A DNA stretch of 47,416 nucleotides, from assembly GCF_000745895.1 (NCBI RefSeq), contig NZ_JQKE01000017.1, positions 1-47,416 on the forward strand, given 5' to 3'. A program made the translations under genes and the position numbers. Positions within the stretch are counted from its first letter, which is position 1. Every line of letters begins with the position of its first letter. This DNA is from Stenoxybacter acetivorans DSM 19021. GTDB lineage: Bacteria; Pseudomonadota; Gammaproteobacteria; Burkholderiales; Neisseriaceae. The notes beneath the pieces are model-generated. The model was not told the DNA's origin and searched no databases. It saw nothing but the letters and a program-made list of their open reading frames with translations. Positions 33 to 10,627 of the stretch are shown here, one piece after another.

Positions 33-70
33 ATGAATATTCATTACAGTATTTTCCTATAAATACTGTA
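33..70. repeat. adjacent palindromes at the 3' end of the rep-like gene
   Basis: Two palindromes touch each other. ATGAATATTCAT (33-44) is a perfect 12-bp palindrome. TACAGTATTT (45-54) pairs perfectly with AAATACTGTA (61-70) across a 6-nt loop. The second encodes the last residues and stop codon of the minus-strand gene. A hairpin here would protect or end that transcript, but there is no clear T-run, so terminator function is inferred only. It could equally be a protein-binding site. Confidence 0.45.
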
Positions 71-811
71 AACAACGCTAGGAATTCTTACACCTTTTCT
101 TATTTCTTCAGACTTTTCGGTTTTTTCCGGCGGCGGTTGATTGTGCTTTGGTTTTTTCGGAATGTTCTGTGTTTGTGCTGATTTCAGCAACCGCCCGCGC
201 TCGCCGCTGTACTGCTCAGTAAGCGCATCAACCTTGAAATATGTCCAGCCCTCAATTGAGCCTTGACGCAAAATTGCATCAATATCCAAGCCGCGATTGT
301 GCAGCACAGTCAATGCCCGTATATGGCTGTTTTTACCGGCTTGCTTAAAGGGTTTACCGCGCTTGGTTTCCGCTACTTCCAGCCATTCTTGCCATAAATC
401 GGCATTGAGCCATTCAGGCAGCTGGTTTGGGTCTTTTTTAAAGAATGTCGCATAAATAGAAAAAGGTTTTCCGAGCTTTTCAAAAAGCAGCTGCTCTAAG
501 CGAGCAATATTCAGCCGCCAGTGCATTTTTCCATGAACTCCGCCACGGCGGTATTCAATCACACCCAAATCAAGGAGAATACGGCGGGCTTTTTCGTAGG
601 CGCGGCGGGTGAAGCCGAGTTTTTCGAGCAAATCCCGAGCGGTTTCCCACGACCAGCCACAACGATGCCCGTACTTGGCAGGATCGTGTTCCATGATGCC
701 GCGCATTTGCAACAGATAGTCCACCATGGCGGCGGCTACTCCGATGCCGTCGCATAACACCAATGTTTCGGCGTAGCGTTGGTAGCGTGGGGGGAGGGCG
801 ATAGGGGTCAT
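44..811 (-). CDS. phage-type replication protein (winged-helix, DnaT/O-like), putative
   Basis: A 255-residue soluble protein. The first ~110 residues look like a winged-helix domain (WSWETARDLLEKLGFTRRAY followed by a basic beta-hairpin region), as in prophage replication proteins. Residues ~165-200 (IRALTVLHNRGLDIDAILRQ ... GWTYFKV) resemble the C-terminal segment of phage DnaT/replication-organising proteins, followed by a Pro/Lys-rich tail. The ATG at 809-811 lies 4 nt after the stop of the Cro-like gene, so the two form one leftward operon of the early-lytic type (cro then replication). The family is inferred from architecture and position. An accessory DNA-binding protein is the alternative. 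Confidence 0.55.
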   Translation of the reverse strand: MTPIALPPRYQRYAETLVLCDGIGVAAAMVDYLLQMRGIMEHDPAKYGHRCGWSWETARDLLEKLGFTRRAYEKARRILLDLGVIEYRRGGVHGKMHWRLNIARLEQLLFEKLGKPFSIYATFFKKDPNQLPEWLNADLWQEWLEVAETKRGKPFKQAGKNSHIRALTVLHNRGLDIDAILRQGSIEGWTYFKVDALTEQYSGERGRLLKSAQTQNIPKKPKHNQPPPEKTEKSEEIRKGVRIPSVVYSIYRKIL

Positions 812-815
812 TAGT

Positions 816-1001
816 TTACTGATTTTTTTGCAAATCTTTGTGTAATTTTAAAAGTGCCTCACCGATTTGATATTTTACGCTTGCCTGTTTTCCTGTAGAA
901 AGAAACGAAATTGTTCCTTGAGAACAATTACTTAACTTTGCTATTTGATATTGCCGTAAACCTGAATTTTCTAAATCATGAATAATTTTTTGCCAATTCA
1001 T
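816..1001 (-). CDS. Cro-like helix-turn-helix regulator (61 aa)
   Basis: A 61-residue protein that is almost entirely a helix-turn-helix: RQYQIAKLSNCSQGTISFLS is a recognisable HTH with the Gln/Gly turn pattern of phage Cro and HTH-XRE proteins. I chose the ATG at 999-1001 because AAGG lies 9 nt upstream; a longer in-frame reading would begin inside the operator/promoter region. It is transcribed divergently from the CI-like repressor and directly precedes the replication protein, the layout of a lambdoid switch. It probably binds the sites at 1042-1065. Function is inferred from HTH and position. Confidence 0.65.
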   Translation of the reverse strand: MNWQKIIHDLENSGLRQYQIAKLSNCSQGTISFLSTGKQASVKYQIGEALLKLHKDLQKNQ

Positions 1002-1034: not shown

Positions 1035-1064
1035 ATTATATATTAGCAATCTAATTATTAGCAA
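1035..1064 (-). promoter_or_regulatory. leftward early promoter of the cro-rep operon
   Basis: On the minus strand TTGCTA (1064-1059) and TATAAT (1040-1035) are separated by 18 bp. Transcription would start about 7 nt further on and run into the Cro-like and replication genes. The spacer contains the ATTAG-N4-CTAAT operator candidate, as expected for a repressed early promoter. Confidence 0.6.
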
Positions 1065-1129: not shown

Positions 1130-1741
1130 ATGAGTGATATTGGACATCGTATTAAAAAACGGCGAGAAGAAATAGAGCTTAGCCAAGCAGAATTGGCAAG
1201 GCGATCTAAAGTTAGCCAAGGAACGATAGCACAATTAGAAACAGGGCGAAATCAAAGCTCTGCGAAAATTGTTGAGTTATCCTATGCTTTAGGCGTATCT
1301 CCTGAGTGGTTGCTCTATGGTAAAAATACTCCCACCATTCCTGAGCGTTCAACCAACATCATTGAAACACAATCATTTCTAACTTCAGAGAAAAGTAATT
1401 CGGGGATTAAACCAAAACTACTAGAGAAAAAACAATGGGATGCTGATTATATTGAATTTATTCAAGCCAATGATGAGAGTATGTCCCCTGTAATAGGCAT
1501 CTATGATGACGTTGCTGTAAATAAATTAGACACAACACCCCATGAAAATGGTGTATTTGCCATTCGACGGAAAACAGGAATAATTATTATTCGTAGATTG
1601 GTGGTAGATTTTAATTATAGTTGGATTTACCGTTGTGATAACCCTGATAAAACCAGATTCTCTGATATTCCACGCAGTGAAGCCGATACGGTAATTGGTC
1701 GTGTTATTTGGCGGGGTGGCTCAGAAATGTTTAATTGTTAA
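1130..1741 (+). CDS. CI-like repressor, HTH-XRE plus S24 (LexA/CI) domain
   Basis: A 203-residue two-domain repressor. Residues ~6-62 are an HTH-XRE domain (LSQAELARRSKVSQGTIAQL). Residues ~105-200 are a LexA/CI-type S24 fold with DESMSP, where S117 takes the place of the catalytic serine. The catalytic lysine expected in the VKRL-like strand is replaced: the sequence reads IIIIRRLV, with R155 at that position. The linker has no Ala-Gly or Cys-Gly cleavage pair. The protein probably maintains the integrated state by binding the operators just upstream, but may not be inducible by RecA-stimulated self-cleavage. It ends at a strong bidirectional terminator. Confidence 0.82.
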   Translation: MSDIGHRIKKRREEIELSQAELARRSKVSQGTIAQLETGRNQSSAKIVELSYALGVSPEWLLYGKNTPTIPERSTNIIETQSFLTSEKSNSGIKPKLLEKKQWDADYIEFIQANDESMSPVIGIYDDVAVNKLDTTPHENGVFAIRRKTGIIIIRRLVVDFNYSWIYRCDNPDKTRFSDIPRSEADTVIGRVIWRGGSEMFNC

Positions 1742-1786: not shown

Positions 1787-2092
1787 TTAAATTGCCTCAT
1801 GTTGGATAGGAACAATTTGAAGCGTATAGCCAAGCGGGGTCAGTATTTTAAAAAGGGTGTCAATTTGAGGAGTTGCTTTTAGGCTTTCCAAACGCGCGAT
1901 CGCTGGTTGCTTTACTCCTGAAACATCTGCCAACGCTTGCTGTGAAAGTCCGCGAGCTTCACGCGCCTCAATCATTTTTCCAATGAGTTCAACCTCAAAA
2001 TAGATGCGCTCCCTGTCTGCGGGACTCACACGTGTTTCATCATTCATATAGTCTGCAAAATTTCTAACTTTTTTTCGTTTTTTAGTTTCCAT
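1787..2092 (-). CDS. HigA-type antitoxin (HTH-XRE), module 1
   Basis: A 101-residue HTH-XRE protein. The HTH lies at residues ~45-75 (LSQQALADVSGVKQPAIARL), with an N-terminal extension containing NFADYMNDE and a hydrophobic C-terminal strand typical of antitoxins paired with Gp49-like toxins. It overlaps the end of the toxin gene by 11 nt, so translation is probably coupled; no strong own ribosome-binding site is visible. It would neutralise the toxin and repress the operon through the palindrome at 2501-2518. The exact family (HigA versus another XRE antitoxin) is inferred. Confidence 0.75.
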   Translation of the reverse strand: METKKRKKVRNFADYMNDETRVSPADRERIYFEVELIGKMIEAREARGLSQQALADVSGVKQPAIARLESLKATPQIDTLFKILTPLGYTLQIVPIQHEAI

Positions 2093-2474
2093 TTGGTTTA
2101 TTCCTTTCTATAAAATCTTTCATTTTAGCTCGAGCCTTTTCAATTTCTTGAGGTGGTGTTTTTTGCGTTTTTTTGATGAAATAATGCAACATTATGAATT
2201 TTTTGCCTGTCCAATGAAAGAAAAAAATACGATTAGAAAGTGGACGCAATTCCCATAAGTTGCCGTCTATATGTTTAACAACAGGCTTTCCTACTCTAGT
2301 CCCATACCGCTCCAACAAACCGAAGTAAGACAGTATTTTATCGAGATTAATTCGTGCCGTTTTACTGGTTGCACTCCGTTCTCCCAAGTCATCTAAATAA
2401 TCAACAAGTTCTGAATCTCCATTTTTATCCTCGTAAAAATCAATGTGATACAAACTCTTATCACTGTCTTTCAT
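2082..2474 (-). CDS. HigB/RelE-type toxin (Gp49-like), module 1
   Basis: A 130-residue protein of the HigB/RelE (phage Gp49-like) mRNA-interferase group. The diagnostic core is YGTRVGKPVVKHIDGNLWEL followed by RIFFFHWTGKKFIMLHYFIKKTQKTP, ending in a Lys-rich helix (EIEKARAKMKDF). I chose the ATG at 2472-2474 because AAGGAG lies 5 nt upstream; a GTG two codons earlier overlaps that site. The toxin is first in the operon and the antitoxin second, as in HigBA rather than RelBE. Its operator-like palindrome lies 27 nt upstream. Confidence 0.78.
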   Translation of the reverse strand: MKDSDKSLYHIDFYEDKNGDSELVDYLDDLGERSATSKTARINLDKILSYFGLLERYGTRVGKPVVKHIDGNLWELRPLSNRIFFFHWTGKKFIMLHYFIKKTQKTPPQEIEKARAKMKDFIERNKPNGN

Positions 2475-2500
2475 ACCCACTCCTTGTTATTTATTGAAAT

Positions 2501-2572: not shown

Positions 2573-2601
2573 TTTACAATAATAAATTAGAATGCTAATA
2601 T
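2573..2601 (+). promoter_or_regulatory. sigma-70 promoter of the putative ncRNA
   Basis: TTTACA (2573-2578), a 17-bp spacer, and TAATAT (2596-2601) preceded by a TG at 2593-2594 (extended -10) make a near-consensus promoter; initiation would fall near A2608. The ATTAG-N4-CTAAT palindrome at 2586-2599 covers the spacer end and the -10 element, so a repressor bound there would block it. Confidence 0.7.
2586..2599. promoter_or_regulatory. CI/Cro-type operator overlapping the ncRNA promoter
   Basis: ATTAG-AATG-CTAAT has the same half-sites and spacing as ATTAG-CAAT-CTAAT at 1042-1055 in the repressor control region, and it overlaps the -10 box of a strong promoter. The likely reading is that the element's repressor or Cro-like protein controls this promoter. 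With 10 fixed bases the coincidence is unlikely but not excluded in AT-rich DNA. Confidence 0.5.
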
Positions 2602-2621
2602 AACCGCATCGAAGCAACACC

Positions 2622-2634
2622 TGCTCTTTAACAA
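2622..2634 (+). promoter_or_regulatory. boxA antitermination element
   Basis: TGCTCTTTAACAA is identical to the boxA of ribosomal RNA leaders, the binding site of NusB/NusE. It lies ~14 nt after the predicted start of the putative ncRNA. BoxA normally protects long untranslated RNAs from Rho, which fits a non-coding transcript. Confidence 0.65.
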
Positions 2635-2891
2635 CCCAGTCCGACTAAGCCCGCGCCACCAGAAAGCGGCGGCGGTAACAAGGAGAAAAGATTACCGCCC
2701 TTGCCCTGAAAAGCAAGCAAGTTAGCGGTACGGCGCGGCTGTTCAGTCGCCGCGCAAGCTGTGAATAGCCCGACTGCAATAGACAAAAAATCTCACTAGC
2801 GGGGAACTGAACCGACTCAACTGCGAAATGCGGGTGTTTGATGCGAATATACCGTCAAACCCGAGCGTGGTCGTAATAAAACGGCAGTAAG

Positions 2892-2944
2892 CAATCAAAT
2901 TCGGCAGATTGGCAACAGTCTGCCGATATGTGATTGTTTTTTTT
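2892..2944 (+). terminator. intrinsic terminator of the ncRNA
   Basis: Nested stem: CAATCA (2892-2897) pairs with TGATTG (2931-2936), and TCGGCAGA (2901-2908) pairs with TCTGCCGA (2919-2926), followed immediately by eight Ts. Confidence 0.85.
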
Positions 2945-3017: not shown

Positions 3018-3296
3018 ATGATTACTGATTTTTACTGCGAAGAAACCCAAGCCCTTTTCGAAGGGAATCGAGTAAAACGTTTCGCCAACATTGAAACCGT
3101 TGCCATGCGTAAATTACAGCAACTACATGCAGCAACAGATTTAAATTTTCTACGCATTCCACCCGGAAACCACTTAGAAGCGTTGAGCGGCAACCATAAA
3201 GGTCAATACAGCATACGTATTAATAACCAATGGCGGATTTGCTTCATCTGGCAAAATGGACACTCAACCCATGTAGAAATCGTTGATTACCATTGA
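3018..3296 (+). CDS. higB: HigB-type toxin, module 2
   Basis: A 92-residue protein of the HigB/RelE family, the usual length for HigB. Recognisable segments are the N-terminal RVKRFANIETVAMRKLQQL helix, the RIPPGNHLEAL strand, and GQYSIRINNQWRICFIW followed by VEIVDYH at the C-terminus, which hold the Arg/His residues used for ribosome-dependent mRNA cleavage in this family. I chose the ATG at 3018; the upstream TTG at 3000 lies inside the operator. It is followed by the antitoxin gene after 16 nt. Confidence 0.88.
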   Translation: MITDFYCEETQALFEGNRVKRFANIETVAMRKLQQLHAATDLNFLRIPPGNHLEALSGNHKGQYSIRINNQWRICFIWQNGHSTHVEIVDYH

Positions 3297-3312
3297 TTTA
3301 ATGGAGAAAATA

Positions 3313-3645
3313 ATGAATAAACGCCAAGTTCCTTTGATTCACCCCGGTGAAATTTTGCTTGAAGATTGGTTGAAGCCAATGAATATTAGCCAATACGCAC
3401 TGGCAAAAGCCATTGATGTATCGCCGCGGCGAATCAATGAAATTGTGAAAGGCAAACGTGCTATTACCGCCGATACAGCCTTACGGCTGGCTGCTTTCTT
3501 TGGTACTGATGCACAAAGTTGGCTGAATCTACAGAGCCATTACGAAACAGAGCAAACACGCACGATGATTGATGACGTGCTCAATCGTATTCACCCTTAT
3601 ACTGAAGCAAGAGTACGCCAGTCCACTTTGATAGGCAACCGCTAA
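3313..3645 (+). CDS. higA: HigA-type antitoxin, module 2
   Basis: A 110-residue antitoxin of the HigA/VapI group with the signature VPLIHPGEILLEDWLKPMNI and an HTH (ISQYALAKAIDVSPRRINEI), followed by TADTALRLAAFFGTDAQSWL. The ATG at 3313 is preferred because GGAG sits 6 nt upstream; another in-frame ATG at 3301 is possible. Together with the upstream toxin it forms a complete higBA module, probably autoregulated at 2973-3010. It stabilises the mobile element by addiction. Confidence 0.88.
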   Translation: MNKRQVPLIHPGEILLEDWLKPMNISQYALAKAIDVSPRRINEIVKGKRAITADTALRLAAFFGTDAQSWLNLQSHYETEQTRTMIDDVLNRIHPYTEARVRQSTLIGNR

Positions 3646-3707
3646 AATTAAAATGAGGAAGATTTCATTACACTTGTTGCCTTTTTAAGTAATTTATCCG
3701 ATTACCC

Positions 3708-3738
3708 AAGCCTTTTTCTTCAGGAAAGAGGCTTTTTT
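3708..3738 (+). terminator. intrinsic terminator after TA module 2
   Basis: AAGCCTTTTTC (3708-3718) pairs with GAAAGAGGCTT (3724-3734), with one G-U pair, followed by a T-run. Confidence 0.75.
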
Positions 3739-3764: not shown

Positions 3765-4451
3765 ATGATGGAAAACCCCGCAAGTAATAAGGGCTATCTA
3801 CCCGCAGCCCTGCTGCATTTTTATCGTGCCGTCGGTGCGTCTGCTTGGGAATTTCGCAAAGCGGTTATGTTGGTGGAAGTTGAAACACGCTGCTGCTTCT
3901 TTCAAAACCACCCTGATTTGATTGAACCGTTGCGCCAACTGAACACTTATCTACTGACAGTCAGCGCGTATTGTCATCATGATTTTGGTTATGGTTTCGG
4001 CTTTGACGGGGTTGCCCGCGACATCAAAGGCGGCAGCAGTATTTTACCTGCTTTGCCCGGATTGCCCGACAGTCCGCGCTTAGCATTAGCACAATTGATT
4101 GATTTCAAAGCATTCAACCTGAAAGATAAACTCGCTTTTGCCTGTAAAAAAGTGCCGCTGGCGACTTTGGGTGAGGTTGAACATATCCGCACCATGTTAG
4201 CCGTATGGCGGCAATTTACTGAGTGTGTGGCAACAAAATACAGCGGCAAAGAATGGTTTGAGTATGAACGCCACAACTTCACGCTGGTTGATGAACTGAT
4301 TAACTGGCTGGGTTGTGTGCGTTTGCATATTGACGCAGGTTTGCCGATGAAACGTGAAACTGTGCAATGGCAAGAAATCAGCCCACCCGTGCCATTGGTT
4401 TTTCAGGCGGTAGAGCAAGAATTCGGGCGGAAGCGTCCGATGTATTTGTAA
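3765..4451 (+). CDS. hypothetical protein (228 aa) of the mobile element
   Basis: A 228-residue protein that I do not recognise. It has no signal peptide and no clear membrane segment. Features seen are a Leu/aromatic-rich N-terminal helical part, a Gly/Phe stretch (HHDFGYGFGFDG, residues ~66-77), a Pro/Leu-rich loop (ILPALPGLPDSPRL) and a helical C-terminal half rich in Trp. The leader TTTTTCAGGAAGCC just before the ATG resembles that of the trbM-like gene (CAGGAAGTCC-ATGATG), suggesting a shared origin or control. Its place with conjugation-type genes hints at a transfer accessory role, but no function can be assigned. Confidence 0.6.
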   Translation: MMENPASNKGYLPAALLHFYRAVGASAWEFRKAVMLVEVETRCCFFQNHPDLIEPLRQLNTYLLTVSAYCHHDFGYGFGFDGVARDIKGGSSILPALPGLPDSPRLALAQLIDFKAFNLKDKLAFACKKVPLATLGEVEHIRTMLAVWRQFTECVATKYSGKEWFEYERHNFTLVDELINWLGCVRLHIDAGLPMKRETVQWQEISPPVPLVFQAVEQEFGRKRPMYL

Positions 4452-4575: not shown

Positions 4576-4863
4576 ATGGAAACTACGGAAATGATACAGA
4601 ACGTGATGAACATTATCACAGTTATACTGGGCGCAATAGCTATTTGTATGGCTTTGGTCATGATAATCGGCAATTATTTTGAATATTCATATTATGAGTG
4701 TGAATATTATGTAGTTAACTTTATATTAAAATTAATCTTAATAGTTATTATGGTTACCATCTCTCCGATACTGCTTATCGTATGGATTGTGAATAAATCT
4801 CTGGTACTGGCTAGAATGTTGTGGTGTATCGGCATAAAAGATACTAAAAAACATGAAGATTAG
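4576..4863 (+). CDS. small two-helix membrane protein, unknown
   Basis: A 95-residue protein with two hydrophobic helices (residues ~10-28 and ~47-70) joined by a short Tyr/Glu-rich loop (NYFEYSYYECEYY) and ending in a charged tail (KDTKKHED). No family is recognised and the ribosome-binding site is weak. Its stop codon overlaps, by 4 nt, the stop codon of the convergent gene 4860-5564, which also has a membrane anchor. The AT-rich composition contrasts with the neighbouring transfer genes. The pair may be a cargo module, but that is inference. Confidence 0.55.
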   Translation: METTEMIQNVMNIITVILGAIAICMALVMIIGNYFEYSYYECEYYVVNFILKLILIVIMVTISPILLIVWIVNKSLVLARMLWCIGIKDTKKHED

Positions 4864-5564
4864 AATACTTTTCCTTTGGTATTGATAATTTCAATTTTGG
4901 TAGTTACATTATTTGGAAATTTATTGGCAAAAAATTTAAGTTTAATAGAACGTTTGTAATTTTTCCATTTTTTAGGTCTGGGTGGTATTCGCAATTTCAA
5001 CGTGATCCCTTTGTTTTCCGGATCATTTATCTTTTTTTCTGAAAAGACAGATATATTGACATCGGCAAACCGAAATTTATCAAAAATGGTACATTTTCCT
5101 TTTAATATCTTGAAGAAGAAAAATTTATCTTTCTGAATAAACCATTTTTTGATACCAAACCAACTGGGCTTTGATAATCTAATCCTGTATGGTTCAGTCA
5201 TTTCTTCCCAAACGTTGACAGTACACTCTTTTTTGTGTGGTTGAAACGTTTGAAGTATTTGATAAGTAACCTTACCACTGGTAACTGGTCCAATTAAGGT
5301 GATCCGTTTGATGGTATACATCTGTTTCTCTAATCGGTCTAAGCGAATGGTAATTTCTGTATAACCTTTGCCATCTTCTGGTTCATCGATTTCGTAATCT
5401 ATGTCAGGTTGAATATCAGAACGCTTGCTGACTTTAATTGCATGGTATGCAATCCAAGCGGCAATCAATGCTGCAATGAAGGATAGCACTGTTGCAATAT
5501 CTGCTGCCTCGTCCCAGTAATTCCAACTGACTAATTTTTCTAATACGTAAGTTATCAGTTCCAC
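4860..5564 (-). CDS. membrane-anchored hypothetical protein (234 aa)
   Basis: I chose the GTG at 5562-5564 because AAGGAG lies 7 nt upstream on the minus strand; longer readings need a TTG with no such site. The 234-residue product has one N-terminal membrane helix (about residues 20-43, AALIAAWIAYHAI) followed by an acidic DIDYEIDEPEDG segment and a ~170-residue beta-strand-rich, Lys/Phe-rich domain. No family is recognised. It converges with the small membrane protein 4576-4863 and the pair is flanked by matching hairpins, so it looks like an inserted cassette. Entry exclusion or defence is conceivable but unproven. Confidence 0.6.
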   Translation of the reverse strand: MELITYVLEKLVSWNYWDEAADIATVLSFIAALIAAWIAYHAIKVSKRSDIQPDIDYEIDEPEDGKGYTEITIRLDRLEKQMYTIKRITLIGPVTSGKVTYQILQTFQPHKKECTVNVWEEMTEPYRIRLSKPSWFGIKKWFIQKDKFFFFKILKGKCTIFDKFRFADVNISVFSEKKINDPENKGITLKLRIPPRPKKWKNYKRSIKLKFFANKFPNNVTTKIEIINTKGKVF

Positions 5565-5640
5565 TGGGTTGCTCCTTGTGTATGGATTTGAATGTGAGAA
5601 CCTCAATCATAGCACAAGCCAAGCAACCCGCCTTTTACCC

Positions 5641-5700: not shown

Positions 5701-6279
5701 ATGATGAAAAAACTGCTTATCTCCTTAACCGCTGCTGCCTTATTGTCGCCGATAGCTCACGCTGAAAACACCGACGGTGATTTACTCACTGGTGATGTCC
5801 GCCTCGCTTGTGAAGCAATCTTGTGTTTGAGTTCGGGTGATCGCCCCAGTGAATGCGCCCCATCATTAAAACGGTATTTCAGCATCAACCATAAGAAGCT
5901 GAGCGACACCCTGCGTGGACGTAAAAATTTCTTAGAGCTTTGCCCGGCAAGCAATGAAGAAAACATGCCCGAACTCATCAATGCCATTGCCAACGGCGCG
6001 GGGCGATGTGATGCCAAAGAATTAAATCGCATCAATCAAAGAATCATTACAGTTGAAAATCCCGAATGGAAAAGAAGAGGTTGTGATAAACCGGGCTACG
6101 GAAAATGGCGGCTCTGCGACAACATCAAGCCTTATATGCAAATCACCATTATCGAAAACAAACTGCCGCAATACTGCTCCGCATACTTTGATCATGCGTG
6201 GACAGATTTAAAAGGCAAAGGCAGTACTCAATACCAAGGCAATCCAAAAGAGGGCGGGCATTGGGTTGATATTCAATAG
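5701..6279 (+). CDS. trbM: TrbM/MpfK-family conjugal transfer protein
   Basis: A 192-residue exported protein of the TrbM family known from IncP plasmids. The signal peptide (MMKKLL...AHA, residues 1-21) is clear. The family signature follows: LTGDVRLACEAILCLSSG, then RPSECAPSLKRYFSI and NFLELCP, INAIANGAGRCDA, and paired cysteines throughout (C in LACEAILC, SEC, LC, GRC, GC, LC, YC), suggesting periplasmic disulfides. TrbM proteins act in mating-pair formation. Two adjacent ATG codons could start it; 5701 follows AGGAAG. The gene is followed by two stacked terminators, so it is its own unit, and its stop is next to an uptake sequence. Confidence 0.88.
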   Translation: MMKKLLISLTAAALLSPIAHAENTDGDLLTGDVRLACEAILCLSSGDRPSECAPSLKRYFSINHKKLSDTLRGRKNFLELCPASNEENMPELINAIANGAGRCDAKELNRINQRIITVENPEWKRRGCDKPGYGKWRLCDNIKPYMQITIIENKLPQYCSAYFDHAWTDLKGKGSTQYQGNPKEGGHWVDIQ

Positions 6280-6379: not shown

Positions 6380-6517
6380 TGATAGAGAGAAAGACATGGC
6401 TTGGGTGTATTGTTCCTTGATCCACCGACAAAATCACACAGCCGTGTCTTTCTCTCTGTACAGAGCAAGAGCAACAACAATCATGTTTCATTCATTTCAT
6501 TTTTTAAGGAAACCAAC

Positions 6518-7261
6518 ATGCAACAAGCACATTTTATTTTGCAGGGAAAAGGCGGTGTCGGCAAATCACTGGTTGCGTCAATATTGGCACAATACCTGAC
6601 GCAAACTTTTTCAGGCAGCTTACCGGTACATTGTTTTGACACTGATCCGGTAAACCAAACATTCAGCCGCTACAAAGCCCTGAATACACAAATGGTCAAA
6701 ATTCTTAATCAGGACGATAACATCGACAGCCGCTTATTTGACGGACTGATTGAGGAATTACTCACCGCAGAGGGTATTGCTGTAATTGATAACGGTGCAG
6801 CGACTTTTGTGCCGCTGGTGGGCTATCTGAAAGAAAACGGCATTATTGAGTTCTTGGAAGCCAACGGTGTACATGTTATTTGCCATGTTGTAGTAACGGG
6901 CGGACAAGCTATGGAAGATACTTTTTACGGCTTAGCAGCGGTACTACACAAATTGCCCGTGAAAGTCATGGTGTGGAGCAATGAGTTTTTCGGTGCGATT
7001 GAGCAAAACGGTAAATCACTGATGGATCTCAAAGTGATGAACGATAACCATGACCGCATCGTTGGTGTAATTCGTATTCCTCGCCGTACTGCCGACACAT
7101 TCGGCAAAGACATAGAAAATATGGTGAGTGCCAATTTAACGTTTGATGAAGTTGAAAAAACACCTGAATTCGGCATCATGAGCCGCCAACGTCTATTGAC
7201 GGTAAAACGAGATTTATTCACGTCTTTAGACCAATTGTCCTTTTCAGGCAACCTGTTGTAA
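6518..7261 (+). CDS. traL: TraL-type conjugal transfer ATPase (ParA-like)
   Basis: A 247-residue deviant-Walker P-loop ATPase matching TraL of IncP plasmids. Seen: FILQGKGGVGKSLVASILAQ (deviant Walker A), FDTDPVNQTFSRYKAL, AVIDNGAATFVPL (the DNGA motif), VVVTGGQA, and the ending IMSRQRLLTVKRDLF. The ATG at 6518 is chosen because AAGGA lies 7 nt upstream and the family starts here; the open frame extends further upstream without homology. TraL acts with TraM and the relaxosome in DNA transfer, although its exact role is not settled. It is followed by a TraM-like gene, the order seen in IncP tra regions. Confidence 0.9.
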   Translation: MQQAHFILQGKGGVGKSLVASILAQYLTQTFSGSLPVHCFDTDPVNQTFSRYKALNTQMVKILNQDDNIDSRLFDGLIEELLTAEGIAVIDNGAATFVPLVGYLKENGIIEFLEANGVHVICHVVVTGGQAMEDTFYGLAAVLHKLPVKVMVWSNEFFGAIEQNGKSLMDLKVMNDNHDRIVGVIRIPRRTADTFGKDIENMVSANLTFDEVEKTPEFGIMSRQRLLTVKRDLFTSLDQLSFSGNLL

Positions 7262-8111: not shown

Positions 8112-8390
8112 ATGGAAAAAATTGAATATATCCGCATCGTTGCATTCTTGCGAAGAGTACCAACAAAAAAACTGGCTGAAAAATTAGATCGCGTGGGCTG
8201 GACGCGTTATTCCGCGAGTGTGTACGTCCGTATGACTCGTACAGATCTTATAGGGTTTAGGGTTGAAGAACTTCAATTTGCAATTAGAGACCACCCGCCA
8301 GAAAAAATAATCACCATGCCTGAAGAGAATTTTGTCGCGTGGCAACCGTACTGGGAAGAAAACAGATACATGCAAAACCCCGAGGATTAA
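8112..8390 (+). CDS. hypothetical protein (92 aa)
   Basis: A 92-residue protein starting one base after the stop of the zinc-ribbon gene, with GGAAGGAA as ribosome-binding site. The start at 8112 is chosen for that site; longer readings run through the upstream gene. The N-terminal part (IRIVAFLRRVPTKKLAEKLD) could be a DNA-binding helical unit, followed by an aromatic, acidic C-terminus. Not recognised. Probably an accessory gene of excision or transfer by position. Confidence 0.55.
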   Translation: MEKIEYIRIVAFLRRVPTKKLAEKLDRVGWTRYSASVYVRMTRTDLIGFRVEELQFAIRDHPPEKIITMPEENFVAWQPYWEENRYMQNPED

Positions 8391-8394
8391 AAAC

Positions 8395-8745
8395 ATGAAA
8401 ACATTTAACGTAGCGCAAGCAGCAGCACTCTGTCATTGCCACATGGAAACCATACGCGAACATATCAGAAGCGGCAAACTCGTTGCTGTTCGCATTGGTC
8501 GCAGCTACGTCATCACTCAACCCGCGCTTGACGCGTTCCTCAACACTTTAGAAAATGATGCCATGCGGGCATCACTTCAAAAACGGAGTGAAGAAAAATG
8601 CCGATTTATCAACGAAAAAACGGTACTTGGTACATCAATCTCACAACACAAGGCGGCAAGAGAATTAGATATTCTCTTAACACCCAAGACAAGAGGCAGG
8701 CGCAAGAGCTGCACGACAAAATCGCGCATGAGCAATGGCGTGTAG
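8395..8745 (+). CDS. excisionase-like helix-turn-helix protein overlapping int
   Basis: A 116-residue protein. Residues 1-52 are a MerR/HTH_17-type excisionase domain: FNVAQAAALCHCHMETIREHIRSGKL, then VAVRIGRSYVITQPALDAFL. The remaining ~60 residues, ending KSCTTKSRMSNGV, resemble C-terminal extensions I associate with similar proteins in proteobacterial mobile elements. The start at 8395 follows GAGG and fits the domain boundary. The last 148 nt overlap the integrase gene in another frame, so both are probably translated from one mRNA. It would bias the recombinase towards excision. Confidence 0.72.
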   Translation: MKTFNVAQAAALCHCHMETIREHIRSGKLVAVRIGRSYVITQPALDAFLNTLENDAMRASLQKRSEEKCRFINEKTVLGTSISQHKAARELDILLTPKTRGRRKSCTTKSRMSNGV

Positions 8746-9581
8746 AAAAGCTCGGCGATAAGCCAAAATATACTTGGGACGAAGCCGCCGCTCGGTGGAT
8801 AAAGGAGAAGCAGCACAAACGAAGTATTAATGACGACAAAACCAAAATCAGACGACTTGCCACATTGCGCGGAATACCGTTGGAATTATTAACGAGAGAT
8901 TTTGTCATGAAAATGGTTGCCGAATTGCCATGTGGTGATTCCACCAAAAATCGTTATCTGACATTGATTCGTTCTGTTCTAAACAAATGTTCGGGAGAAT
9001 GGGAATGGCTGGATAAAGCACCCAAATTTACGTTATATCGCGAACCAAAAAAGCGAATCAGATTTTTGACTCGTGAAGAAGCGGACAGGCTGATATTGTC
9101 ATTACCGGAACTGTATGCGGATTTGGCAGAATTCAGTTTCATGACAGGTTTGCGACAAACCAACGTGTTGCATTTGGCATGGTCTCAAATTGATTTAAAT
9201 CGCAGAATTGCATGGATACACGCAGACCAAAGCAAATCGGGAAGACCAATCGGTGTACCTTTAAATAACAGAGCAGTCAGTGTATTGGAAAGGAGGTTTG
9301 GCGCACATAAAACTTTCGCATTCGTCAATGAACGCACACAAAAACCATTAAATGGGATTTGTTCCAAAACATGGAAAGAGGCATTGCAAAAAGCAGGATT
9401 AACCGATTTTCGTTGGCACGACATTCGCCATACGTGGGCAAGCTGGCTGATACAATCGGGTGTTCCGTTAATGGATTTAAAAGAAATGGGTGGTTGGGAA
9501 AGCATCGAAATGGTACAAAAATATGCCCACTTAGCACCCATGCATTTACATAAAAATGCGGTTCTGCTTGATGCACTTTAA
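8598..9581 (+). CDS. tyrosine recombinase (integrase) of the element
   Basis: A 327-residue integrase. An N-terminal arm-binding segment (PIYQRKNGTWYINLTTQGGK) is followed by a SAM-like core-binding domain (~60-150) and the catalytic domain. Catalytic residues are visible: Arg in MTGLRQTNVL, Lys in QSKSGRPIGVPL, HxxR in WHDIRHTWASW, Trp instead of the last His in GGWESIEMVQKYAHL, and the Tyr nucleophile in that same segment. The start at 8598 has GGAGTGAAG upstream. It lies 106 nt from the tRNA-Ser 3' end, the usual arrangement for an element integrated into that tRNA. It looks intact. Confidence 0.93.
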   Translation: MPIYQRKNGTWYINLTTQGGKRIRYSLNTQDKRQAQELHDKIAHEQWRVEKLGDKPKYTWDEAAARWIKEKQHKRSINDDKTKIRRLATLRGIPLELLTRDFVMKMVAELPCGDSTKNRYLTLIRSVLNKCSGEWEWLDKAPKFTLYREPKKRIRFLTREEADRLILSLPELYADLAEFSFMTGLRQTNVLHLAWSQIDLNRRIAWIHADQSKSGRPIGVPLNNRAVSVLERRFGAHKTFAFVNERTQKPLNGICSKTWKEALQKAGLTDFRWHDIRHTWASWLIQSGVPLMDLKEMGGWESIEMVQKYAHLAPMHLHKNAVLLDAL

Positions 9582-9859: not shown

Positions 9860-10627
9860 TCAGCGAATAAACACCCATTCGGTTTCATTGGACATGGCTT
9901 CATTGTAGCCATAACCCTCAGCGTCAAAGGCTTTGAGCTGATGCACATCAGTGATGCTGTTTTCGGCGGCAAAACGAGTCATCAAGCCGCGTGCGCGTTT
10001 GGCGTAGAAACTGATGATTTTATATTGTCCGTTTTTTCCATCTTTAAATATCGGTGTGATGATTTTGCCGTGAATACGGGCTGCCTGAACGGATTTAAAA
10101 TATTCCTGCGAAGCCAAATTCACCAATACGGCATCATCGCCTTGCTGTGCCAATGCCTCATTAACTGCCCGATTGATGTGATTGCCCCAAAAAGCGTATA
10201 AATCCGCACCGCGCGGATTGGCTAATTTGGTTCCCATTTCCAATCGATAAGGCTGAATCAGGTCAAGCGGACGCAGCAAGCCATACAAACCCGACAAAAT
10301 TCCCAGATGTTGTTGTAAGTACGCCACACTCGCTTCAGGTAAACTGTGCGCGTCCAAACCTTCATACACATCGCCGTTGAATAAATAAACGGCTTGCTTG
10401 GCATTTTCCGGCGTAAACGGTGTTTGCCAACGAAAAAAGCGTTCGGTGTTTAATAAAGCCAGTTTGTCGGAAATACGCATTAACTGCGCCAACGCTTGCG
10501 GCGGCATGGCTTTTAAAACAGGCATCAATTCTTCAGCTTGATCCAGCAAACAAGGCATGCTGAAAGCCGATACCGGCACGGCAGCGTTTTCGTTTAGATT
10601 TTTGGCGGGAGACAAAATTAAATACAT
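9860..10627 (-). CDS. yaaA: peroxide-stress protein YaaA
   Basis: A 255-residue protein of the YaaA (DUF328/UPF0246) family, with the characteristic N-terminal LILSPAKNL, the central [23 protein letters not shown] motif, [13 protein letters not shown], and [12 protein letters not shown] towards the C-terminus. In E. coli YaaA limits intracellular iron and DNA damage during hydrogen peroxide stress. I chose the ATG at 10625-10627 because the family starts directly at this motif; the in-frame TTG at 10633 is less likely. It is divergent from speA. An uptake-sequence variant (GGCTGCCTGAA near 10079) lies inside it. Confidence 0.93.

Follow-up and report, generated by a model that had tools for sequence, protein, structure and literature searches.

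Positions 2573-2944 of contig NZ_JQKE01000017.1 of Stenoxybacter acetivorans DSM 19021, analyzed here over its whole length of 47,416 nucleotides (the window), raise the question of what a structured RNA headed by a ribosomal-type boxA does among the genes of a mobile element. Along this interval lie a promoter, a boxA without mismatch, a structured RNA of about 270 nt and a terminator whose U8 reaches 2944 (Table 1). The initial annotation, made from this sequence only, had described a TTTACA-17-TAATAT promoter with an extended -10. These elements are present at 2573-2601; as promoter-like sites in the window are near the chance level (11 against 7.3 expected), the hexamers by themselves are weak evidence for the RNA promoter. 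The reported absence of a reading frame was borne out, with no plus-strand ORF of at least 40 aa within 2573-2944, and the strong terminator thought to close the RNA is found as a predicted hairpin with U8 at 2890-2944. Some copies (e.g. L187, L185 and L197) do have ORFs overlapping the RNA, which were set aside. Both flanks are toxin-antitoxin-like, as had been described (1787-2480 on the minus strand, 3018-3645 on the plus strand). The window RNA has a folding energy below that of shuffled sequences (z -2.96, reached by 0 of 100 shuffles), and the minus strand of 2573-2944 folds nearly equally (z -2.77). Since the two strands fold similarly, the energy alone cannot fix the strand of the RNA, which is assigned to the plus strand on the basis of boxA, terminator and covariation.

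Table 1. Features mapped around the boxA-led RNA (positions in the window)
Feature	Position	Strand	Details
Replication initiation O-like gene	44-811	-	
Small regulator, Cro-like by position, divergent from repressor	816-1001	-	transcription regulation families
Operator-like AATTAGATTGCTAATA	1041-1056	-	between Cro-like and CI-like genes; partner of AATTAGAATGCTAATA
CI-like repressor gene	1130-1741	+	HTH_3; phage repressor families
Toxin-antitoxin-like pair (HTH_3; Gp49), inserted between repressor and RNA	1787-2480	-	no relative in other mapped loci
RNA promoter	2573-2601	+	-35 TTTACA 2573-2578, 17-nt spacer, -10 TAATAT 2596-2601, TG of extended -10
Operator-like AATTAGAATGCTAATA	2585-2600	+	overlaps RNA promoter; 15/16 letters in common with region upstream of repressor gene
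boxA	2623-2633	+	GCTCTTTAACA; with flanks TGCTCTTTAACAA at 2622-2634; exact consensus match
P1	2640-2684	+	2640-2642 (UCC)/2682-2684 (GGA), 2651-2654/2672-2675; compensatory changes in both helices
P3 hairpin	2734-2754	+	stem 2734-2739/2749-2754, loop 2740-2748; A5 alignment
Pseudoknot PK1	2741-2812	+	loop 2741-2746 (GUUCAG) with 2807-2812 (CUGAAC)
P4	2769-2804	+	2769-2771/2802-2804, around small hairpin 2781-2783/2791-2793
P5	2813-2873	+	2813-2816/2870-2873, variable hairpin within
Possible second pseudoknot	2821-2887	+	invariant CUGC (2821-2824) and GCAG (2884-2887)
Intrinsic terminator hairpin with U8	2890-2944	+	predicted structure
HigB-like toxin and HTH_3 antitoxin, cargo 3' of RNA	3018-3645	+	place not conserved
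Terminator-like hairpin	3708-3734	+	ends 31 nt before gene 3765-4451
Next plus-strand gene	3765-4451	+	ORF
TrbM	5701-6279	+	
ParA-like	6401-7261	+	
Xis-like	8332-8745	+	
Tyrosine integrase, near tRNA-Ser gene	8598-9581	+	

Three types of boxA-led RNA

The boxA of the window conforms to the published consensus GYTCTTTAANA, derived for gammaproteobacteria (PMC5725501). Its 11 letters recur identically elsewhere in this genome, some 165 nt ahead of the starts of two 16S genes, in agreement with its description as an rRNA-type site. The chance expectation of a boxA with at most one mismatch is 0.13 over the whole window. The exact consensus is not enriched in the genome of the window, where it occurs at 18 sites against 31 for the reversed pattern.

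A BLAST search of 61 genomes with the window RNA revealed three near-identical copies in another Neisseriaceae genus (G002), and a repeat search with a G002 copy as the query led to G006, G015 and G021. The covariance model built from the window, G006, G015 and G021 (R1, defining type A) recovers the three G002 copies, which are absent from the model, with E 1e-26 to 1e-23. A covariance search across Neisseriaceae, proposed in the initial annotation as a check, places type A in five of 83 genomes. At E 0.001, R1 found the window's own genome only among 399 genomes of the order, and a pattern search of 369 genomes of the class returned the window only.

Further copies came from the ParA-like protein of the window, which has matches in 26 of the 83 family genomes (32 rows). 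Besides the window and L008, 27 ParA loci were taken, leaving out the short fragments G024, G084 C44 and G036 C56. In twenty of them the repressor gene is followed by a boxA and an RNA unlike type A (type B), and three carry type A; L186 and L200 show no RNA on reading, and L204 and L205 were of insufficient length. With a type B model, 23 copies are detected in 19 other genomes of the 83, 20 of them in the model and three new (G070, G078), and none in the five type A genomes. Outside the family, an order-wide ParA search gave 25 rows, from which 20 loci were taken. Repressor, boxA and ParA are combined in two of these (G619 and G735, of one genus); the 18 loci without this combination may belong to other elements. 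The genus of G619 and G735 has yet another RNA (type C), which occurs in three of 121 genomes of that other family. In all, 33 intact loci were collected from 27 genomes and every one has a boxA, which agrees exactly with the gammaproteobacterial consensus in 26 and differs by one mismatch in seven. Scanning 25 loci on both strands gave two exact boxA sites beyond those borne by the RNAs.

Several candidates were rejected. Twenty family loci with weak R1 matches (E between 8e-4 and 0.92) were all dropped, the RNA being absent from the 13 that were read. A BLAST match in G057 (L003/L009) looked by eye like a protein gene and was dropped; a match in G020 and many short ones at query positions 98-153 represent a repeat, chance-shared or genome-copied, as judged from the one in G020, and all were discarded. 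A pattern scan of genome contigs returned 19 stretches, of which L050 and L053 are the G015 and G021 copies of type A and the remaining 17 unrelated by eye (L045 from a partial view). Five pattern scans of viral contigs yielded 60 stretches; 55 were scored with R1 and dropped (best E 0.5), and five were read by eye. At the DNA level, type A had no match in phages and one weak match in plasmids (E 0.3, under an annotated protein gene), and type B, searched with one sequence (L185), had none in either.

The type A and type B models do not recognize each other's RNAs. On eight type B loci the best R1 score at an RNA site is 6.9 bits (L189 8214-8311, E 2.2), and the type B model R2 does not recognize the type A RNA of the window, L040, L041 and L042. 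The two types have a common layout without recognizable sequence likeness, and with models blind to each other common descent cannot be inferred. Among the 4227 models of Rfam release 15, none matches the window RNA above its gathering cut-off (best E 2.1); the type A RNA of L040 gives nothing to E 1, and five type B loci and L206 give no match at the RNA. The earlier impression that no named RNA family has this layout thus holds against Rfam 15 for the type A and B loci scanned. Judged from sequence, A and B each form a pseudoknotted RNA family for which Rfam has no match.

Covariation supports pseudoknotted folds

Structures were drawn on the alignments of both types (A5 and A8) before pairs were counted, which biases the percentage of paired positions towards them and the count of changes on both sides less so. 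In A5, which comprises four type A sequences, the G002 copies being left out as an independent test of R1, the 27 drawn pairs are formed in 98.1%. Changes on both sides affect 11 pairs against 4.4 in shuffled alignments (0 of 500 shuffles reach 11), and no pair when the pairing is slid by one to three columns; further pair types are not in excess (12 against 11.9). The compensatory base changes that the initial annotation had named as potential support for its hairpins are thus seen, and the relatives keep both boxA and hairpins.

P1 pairs AGUCC with AAGGA, and G006 changes both sides to CCC/GGG. On alignment A4, four of eight pairs are changed on both sides against 1.3 after shuffling, a value reached by 3 of 500 shuffles. 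In pseudoknot PK1, five of six pairs are changed on both sides; with G002 added, a single pair appears as C-G, G-C and U-A. The inner small hairpin of P4 is misaligned in the window row of A5. The two strands of the possible second pseudoknot do not vary among the five lineages examined, which leaves covariation silent on it. The type A sequences have in common boxA, AGYCCGANTAA, GGUAAYAAGG, GCGAAAU and ACGGCAG, with much divergence in between.

Of the GC-rich hairpins first described, the helices stand, with compensatory changes, but the AAGGAG said to be exposed in a loop does not: this exposure is a product of single-sequence folding, and the relatives support pairing of its GGA with the UCC of AGUCC. 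The suggested ribosome-binding decoy was rejected, since the motif is AAGGAA or AAGGGG in relatives and is paired rather than free. No sign of the antisense or sponge action also suggested there came up in these comparisons. At 2674-2683 the window reads GGUAACAAGG, kept in type A as GGUAAYAAGG, which resembles GUAACAAGG near the 3' end of 16S rRNA; this likeness, along with the 16S-type boxA, might reflect mimicry.

A decayed partial second copy, consisting of the 3' half of a type A RNA, lies at L041 7410-7563; PK1 does not form in it, and it was kept out of the count of intact loci. By eye, the decayed and intact copies of L041 flank a RelE-type toxin-antitoxin-like pair, which looks as though it had been imported along with the RNA fragment.

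In A8, which holds 20 type B sequences, 33 drawn pairs are formed in 95.8%, with five sequences off by one column at P4 and counted as unpaired there. Changes on both sides occur in 17 pairs against 7.1 in shuffled alignments (0 of 500 reach it) and in at most six when the pairing is slid. The type B pseudoknot joins the hairpin loop UUCAAC to GUUGAA beyond the next helix, and two of its six pairs are changed on both sides. In type C, a loop with a possible downstream pairing partner was judged by eye, so that the layout of a loop paired to a distal strand has covariation behind it in A and B and visual assignment in C.

That boxA and hairpins met by chance and serve no function is scarcely credible. 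The near-chance frequency of promoter-like sites and the lack of boxA enrichment in the genome would be compatible with it, but boxA keeps the same place in 33 loci, and the folds show covariation.

Repressor operators and gene order

The gene arrangement of the window is that of a lambda immunity region, and the RNA stands where a PL-type transcript would begin. By gene order, the RNA occupies the place of nutL or putL in lambdoid phages, heading a mostly plus-strand block that leads to the TrbM, ParA-like, Xis-like and integrase genes. At 26 of 27 mapped loci, an open plus-strand ORF of at least 150 aa ends 131-994 nt upstream of boxA, the exception being L194, whose repressor gene is broken. 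This ORF has a CI-type tblastn match in 19 of 25 loci; in the other six it is a Peptidase_S24 protein, four times with HTH_3. Among the 25 mapped RNA-bearing stretches, Rep lies on the minus strand in 24, and the plus strand carries TrbM and ParA-like genes throughout, an Xis gene in 20 stretches and an Int gene in 18; several stretches end before the last two genes. The Cro-like protein of the window has no match in the other loci, so a Cro gene is seen for the window only. Past the RNA, the first plus-strand ORF of at least 70 aa starts some 370 to 1380 nt after boxA. These positions, together with boxA and the compensatory changes, support the earlier proposal of a mobile-element regulatory RNA, as far as sequence can tell. 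The PL-like position, the operator common to RNA and repressor, the pseudoknot and the wider set of boxA-led RNAs go beyond the initial annotation.

The genes next to the RNA are more variable. The toxin-antitoxin-like pair at 1787-2480 has no relatives in other mapped loci. Relatives of the window HigBA pair occur, among the 24 other mapped RNA loci, at L182 and L185 only, where they lie before the repressor gene and not after the RNA, which speaks against transcription solely as a leader of the downstream higBA, as the initial annotation had considered. On the minus strand at 4860-5606, a gene that opposes the direction of the block is likely inserted cargo; several related elements also have minus-strand ORFs in the interval between RNA and TrbM. 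Two copies in G078 (L268 and L269) agree in all of the 600 letters that surround the RNA. Genes for Rep, repressor, Xis and Int are present there and the ParA-like and TrbM queries have no match, so the RNA occurs without these two genes.

An operator-like sequence is common to the RNA promoter and the region upstream of the repressor gene. The best 16-letter match between this region and the 100 nt upstream of boxA was determined at 26 loci, dropping L194 (repressor not open) and six loci found later. The mean match is 14.7 of 16 for a locus's own pair versus 12.4 for different repressor classes, and 0 of 20,000 permutations on eight class representatives reach the observed sum. In the window the match is 15 of 16, and 0 of 21 other-class repressor regions match as well. 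No other-class region does equally well at 20 of the 26 loci; L190 and L198 are equalled by one of 21 such regions and L206 and L208 by two of 25, and the test fails for L008a (equalled by nine of 25) and L197 (11 of 21). In G002 (L008 3948-13530), three modules of a Rep-like gene, a repressor gene and an RNA follow in tandem, with RNAs that are 95-98% alike and repressors of three classes. By this comparison the modules are a natural immunity swap; the first of them is L008a, among the failures of the operator test.

Candidate functions of the RNA

We consider it an even call whether the RNA acts as a repressor-controlled, boxA-dependent processive antitermination leader, similar to put and nut but larger. 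The CI-like repressor would leave its operators and transcription would start near 2607, whereupon the nascent boxA would recruit the host rRNA antitermination machinery (NusB-S10 and partners). The pseudoknotted RNA behind boxA would stabilize or complete the modified elongation complex, and RNA polymerase would then pass the terminators of the leader as well as those of inserted cargo and continue into TrbM, ParA-like, xis and int. Fold, pseudoknot, boxA, position and the operator-like sequence are seen in the sequence comparison; that the RNA is transcribed, recruits Nus factors and antiterminates, and when it does so, we infer here from boxA in 33 of 33 loci, the early-promoter position, the operator sharing, the covariation and the plus-strand terminators. 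The tag, kind of fold and position kept in the relatives suggest that the RNA helps the polymerase to pass stop signals upon induction of the element.

An antitermination system would need terminator punctuation within a long operon (PMC8955417). From boxA+270 to the ParA-like gene, a region whose start falls inside the longer type B leaders, 25 elements hold 34 terminator-like sites on the plus strand and three on the minus strand, with one to three in three shuffles. At least one strong site is present in 17 of the 25, and the scan detects none in eight. A looser scan of the window gives 10 plus-strand and seven minus-strand sites, 17 in total against 8.2 expected. Since most genes lie on the plus strand, these terminators may be the ordinary ends of their own genes. 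The antitermination reading is weakened by the eight elements without a strong terminator, by a leader of 270-500 nt versus about 70 nt for put, by the strong terminator that ends the window RNA, by the ability of boxA to repress elsewhere (PMC5725501), by the lack of boxA enrichment in the genome, by the failure of the operator test at L197 and L008a, and by further pair types in A5 that do not exceed shuffles.

The terminator directly after the window RNA would also suit an independent RNA of about 270-500 nt that is synthesized upon induction and acts in trans; boxA would then provide only Rho protection and a folding aid, as it does for rRNA, and the target of the RNA might be host translation, a helper element or a competing phage. 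A complex conserved fold far larger than put and boxA letters equal to those of the host 16S-leader site also favor this alternative, which we nevertheless regard as rather unlikely: in 19 of 20 type B elements the scan detects no terminator-like site from boxA+270 to boxA+700, where the leader ends and the next plus-strand ORF usually starts (the exception, L184, has one at +339, inside the leader), and action in trans needs no fixed place at the head of an operon.

We judge it improbable that the RNA serves transfer or replication of the element in the manner of the sgm-sRNA of SGI1, even though the elements carry TrbM and ParA-like genes and a mobilizable island that requires, and itself encodes, a small RNA is known (PMC9299015). 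The sgm-sRNA derives from a transcript 3' end and lies between mpsA and oriT (PMC9299015), whereas the RNA here lies at a 5' end with a repressor-type operator. Less probable still would be a Nus-dependent repressive leader, in which boxA and structure lower downstream expression as at suhB. Repression by boxA of suhB and of a Citrobacter gene for a ParE-like toxin is described in PMC5725501, but the survey there considers boxA within 50 bp of the start codon; here the ORF is some 370-1380 nt away and a large conserved fold would be superfluous.

Returning to antitermination, the closest known systems each resemble the RNA in part. In phage lambda, the boxA of nutL heads the PL transcript leading to xis and int, and nut sites are short and require N protein on boxB. 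The RNA here likewise carries boxA at the head of a putative transcript towards xis and int, but at 270-500 nt it is not short. As to rrn leaders, its boxA reads letter for letter like that of the host 16S leader, but it has no rRNA downstream, a repressor-type promoter and conserved folds of its own. Few systems of RNA-encoded processive antitermination are known. In phage HK022, the put RNAs are encoded after PL and PR, with putL just downstream of PL, and need no dedicated protein; their description in PMC9378689 gives them about 70 nt with two stem-loops and does not contain the word boxA. Like them, the window-type RNA lies just downstream of an early promoter beside a CI gene, with an operator-like sequence in the promoter, but it consists of boxA plus 270-500 nt with a pseudoknot and differs from the two-stem put fold in both length and fold. 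The pLS20-type bipartite antitermination shares the long mobile-element operon with internal terminators (PMC8955417), but belongs to Gram-positive plasmids and is compared by function only. In the open-licence literature, titles and abstracts do not describe a boxA-led element RNA, and a term search of a study of Neisseriaceae ICEs (PMC7371117) finds neither TrbM nor structured RNA nor the term noncoding.

A broader proposal, which we advance tentatively and place somewhat short of even, is that of a class of mobile-element leader RNAs that would use host rRNA antitermination through boxA without a phage-type protein, keeping boxA and promoter in a fixed place while at least three swapped, unrelated-looking bodies (A, B and C) have a loop-pairing layout in common. 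If true, a single boxA chassis would bear diverse leaders in elements of Neisseriaceae and of a second family. They would show how integrative elements silence their cargo and still express a long operon once induced, and would offer a natural mutant series for what boxA needs to form an antiterminating complex.

Other RNA-like features were noted in these elements. At L008 7032-7135, 3' of the RNA in G002, a tRNA-like sequence stands out by a very long anticodon arm (41.8 bits with the Rfam tRNA model, cut-off 29; ARAGORN calls no gene), with similar sequences near 10170 and 14220 by eye. Directly 3' of the type A RNA at L040 5770-5870 and L042 6283-6388, a T-arm-like GTCGGTTCGACTCCGAC and acceptor-like GTGGGC/GCCCAC ends are found, with a long hairpin replacing the other tRNA arms and no Rfam match for L040. 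On the minus strand of the type B element stretch L189, Rfam has matches to C4 antisense RNA at 3559-3646 (46.1 bits) and to sRNA-Xcc1 at 3275-3360 (61.0 bits).
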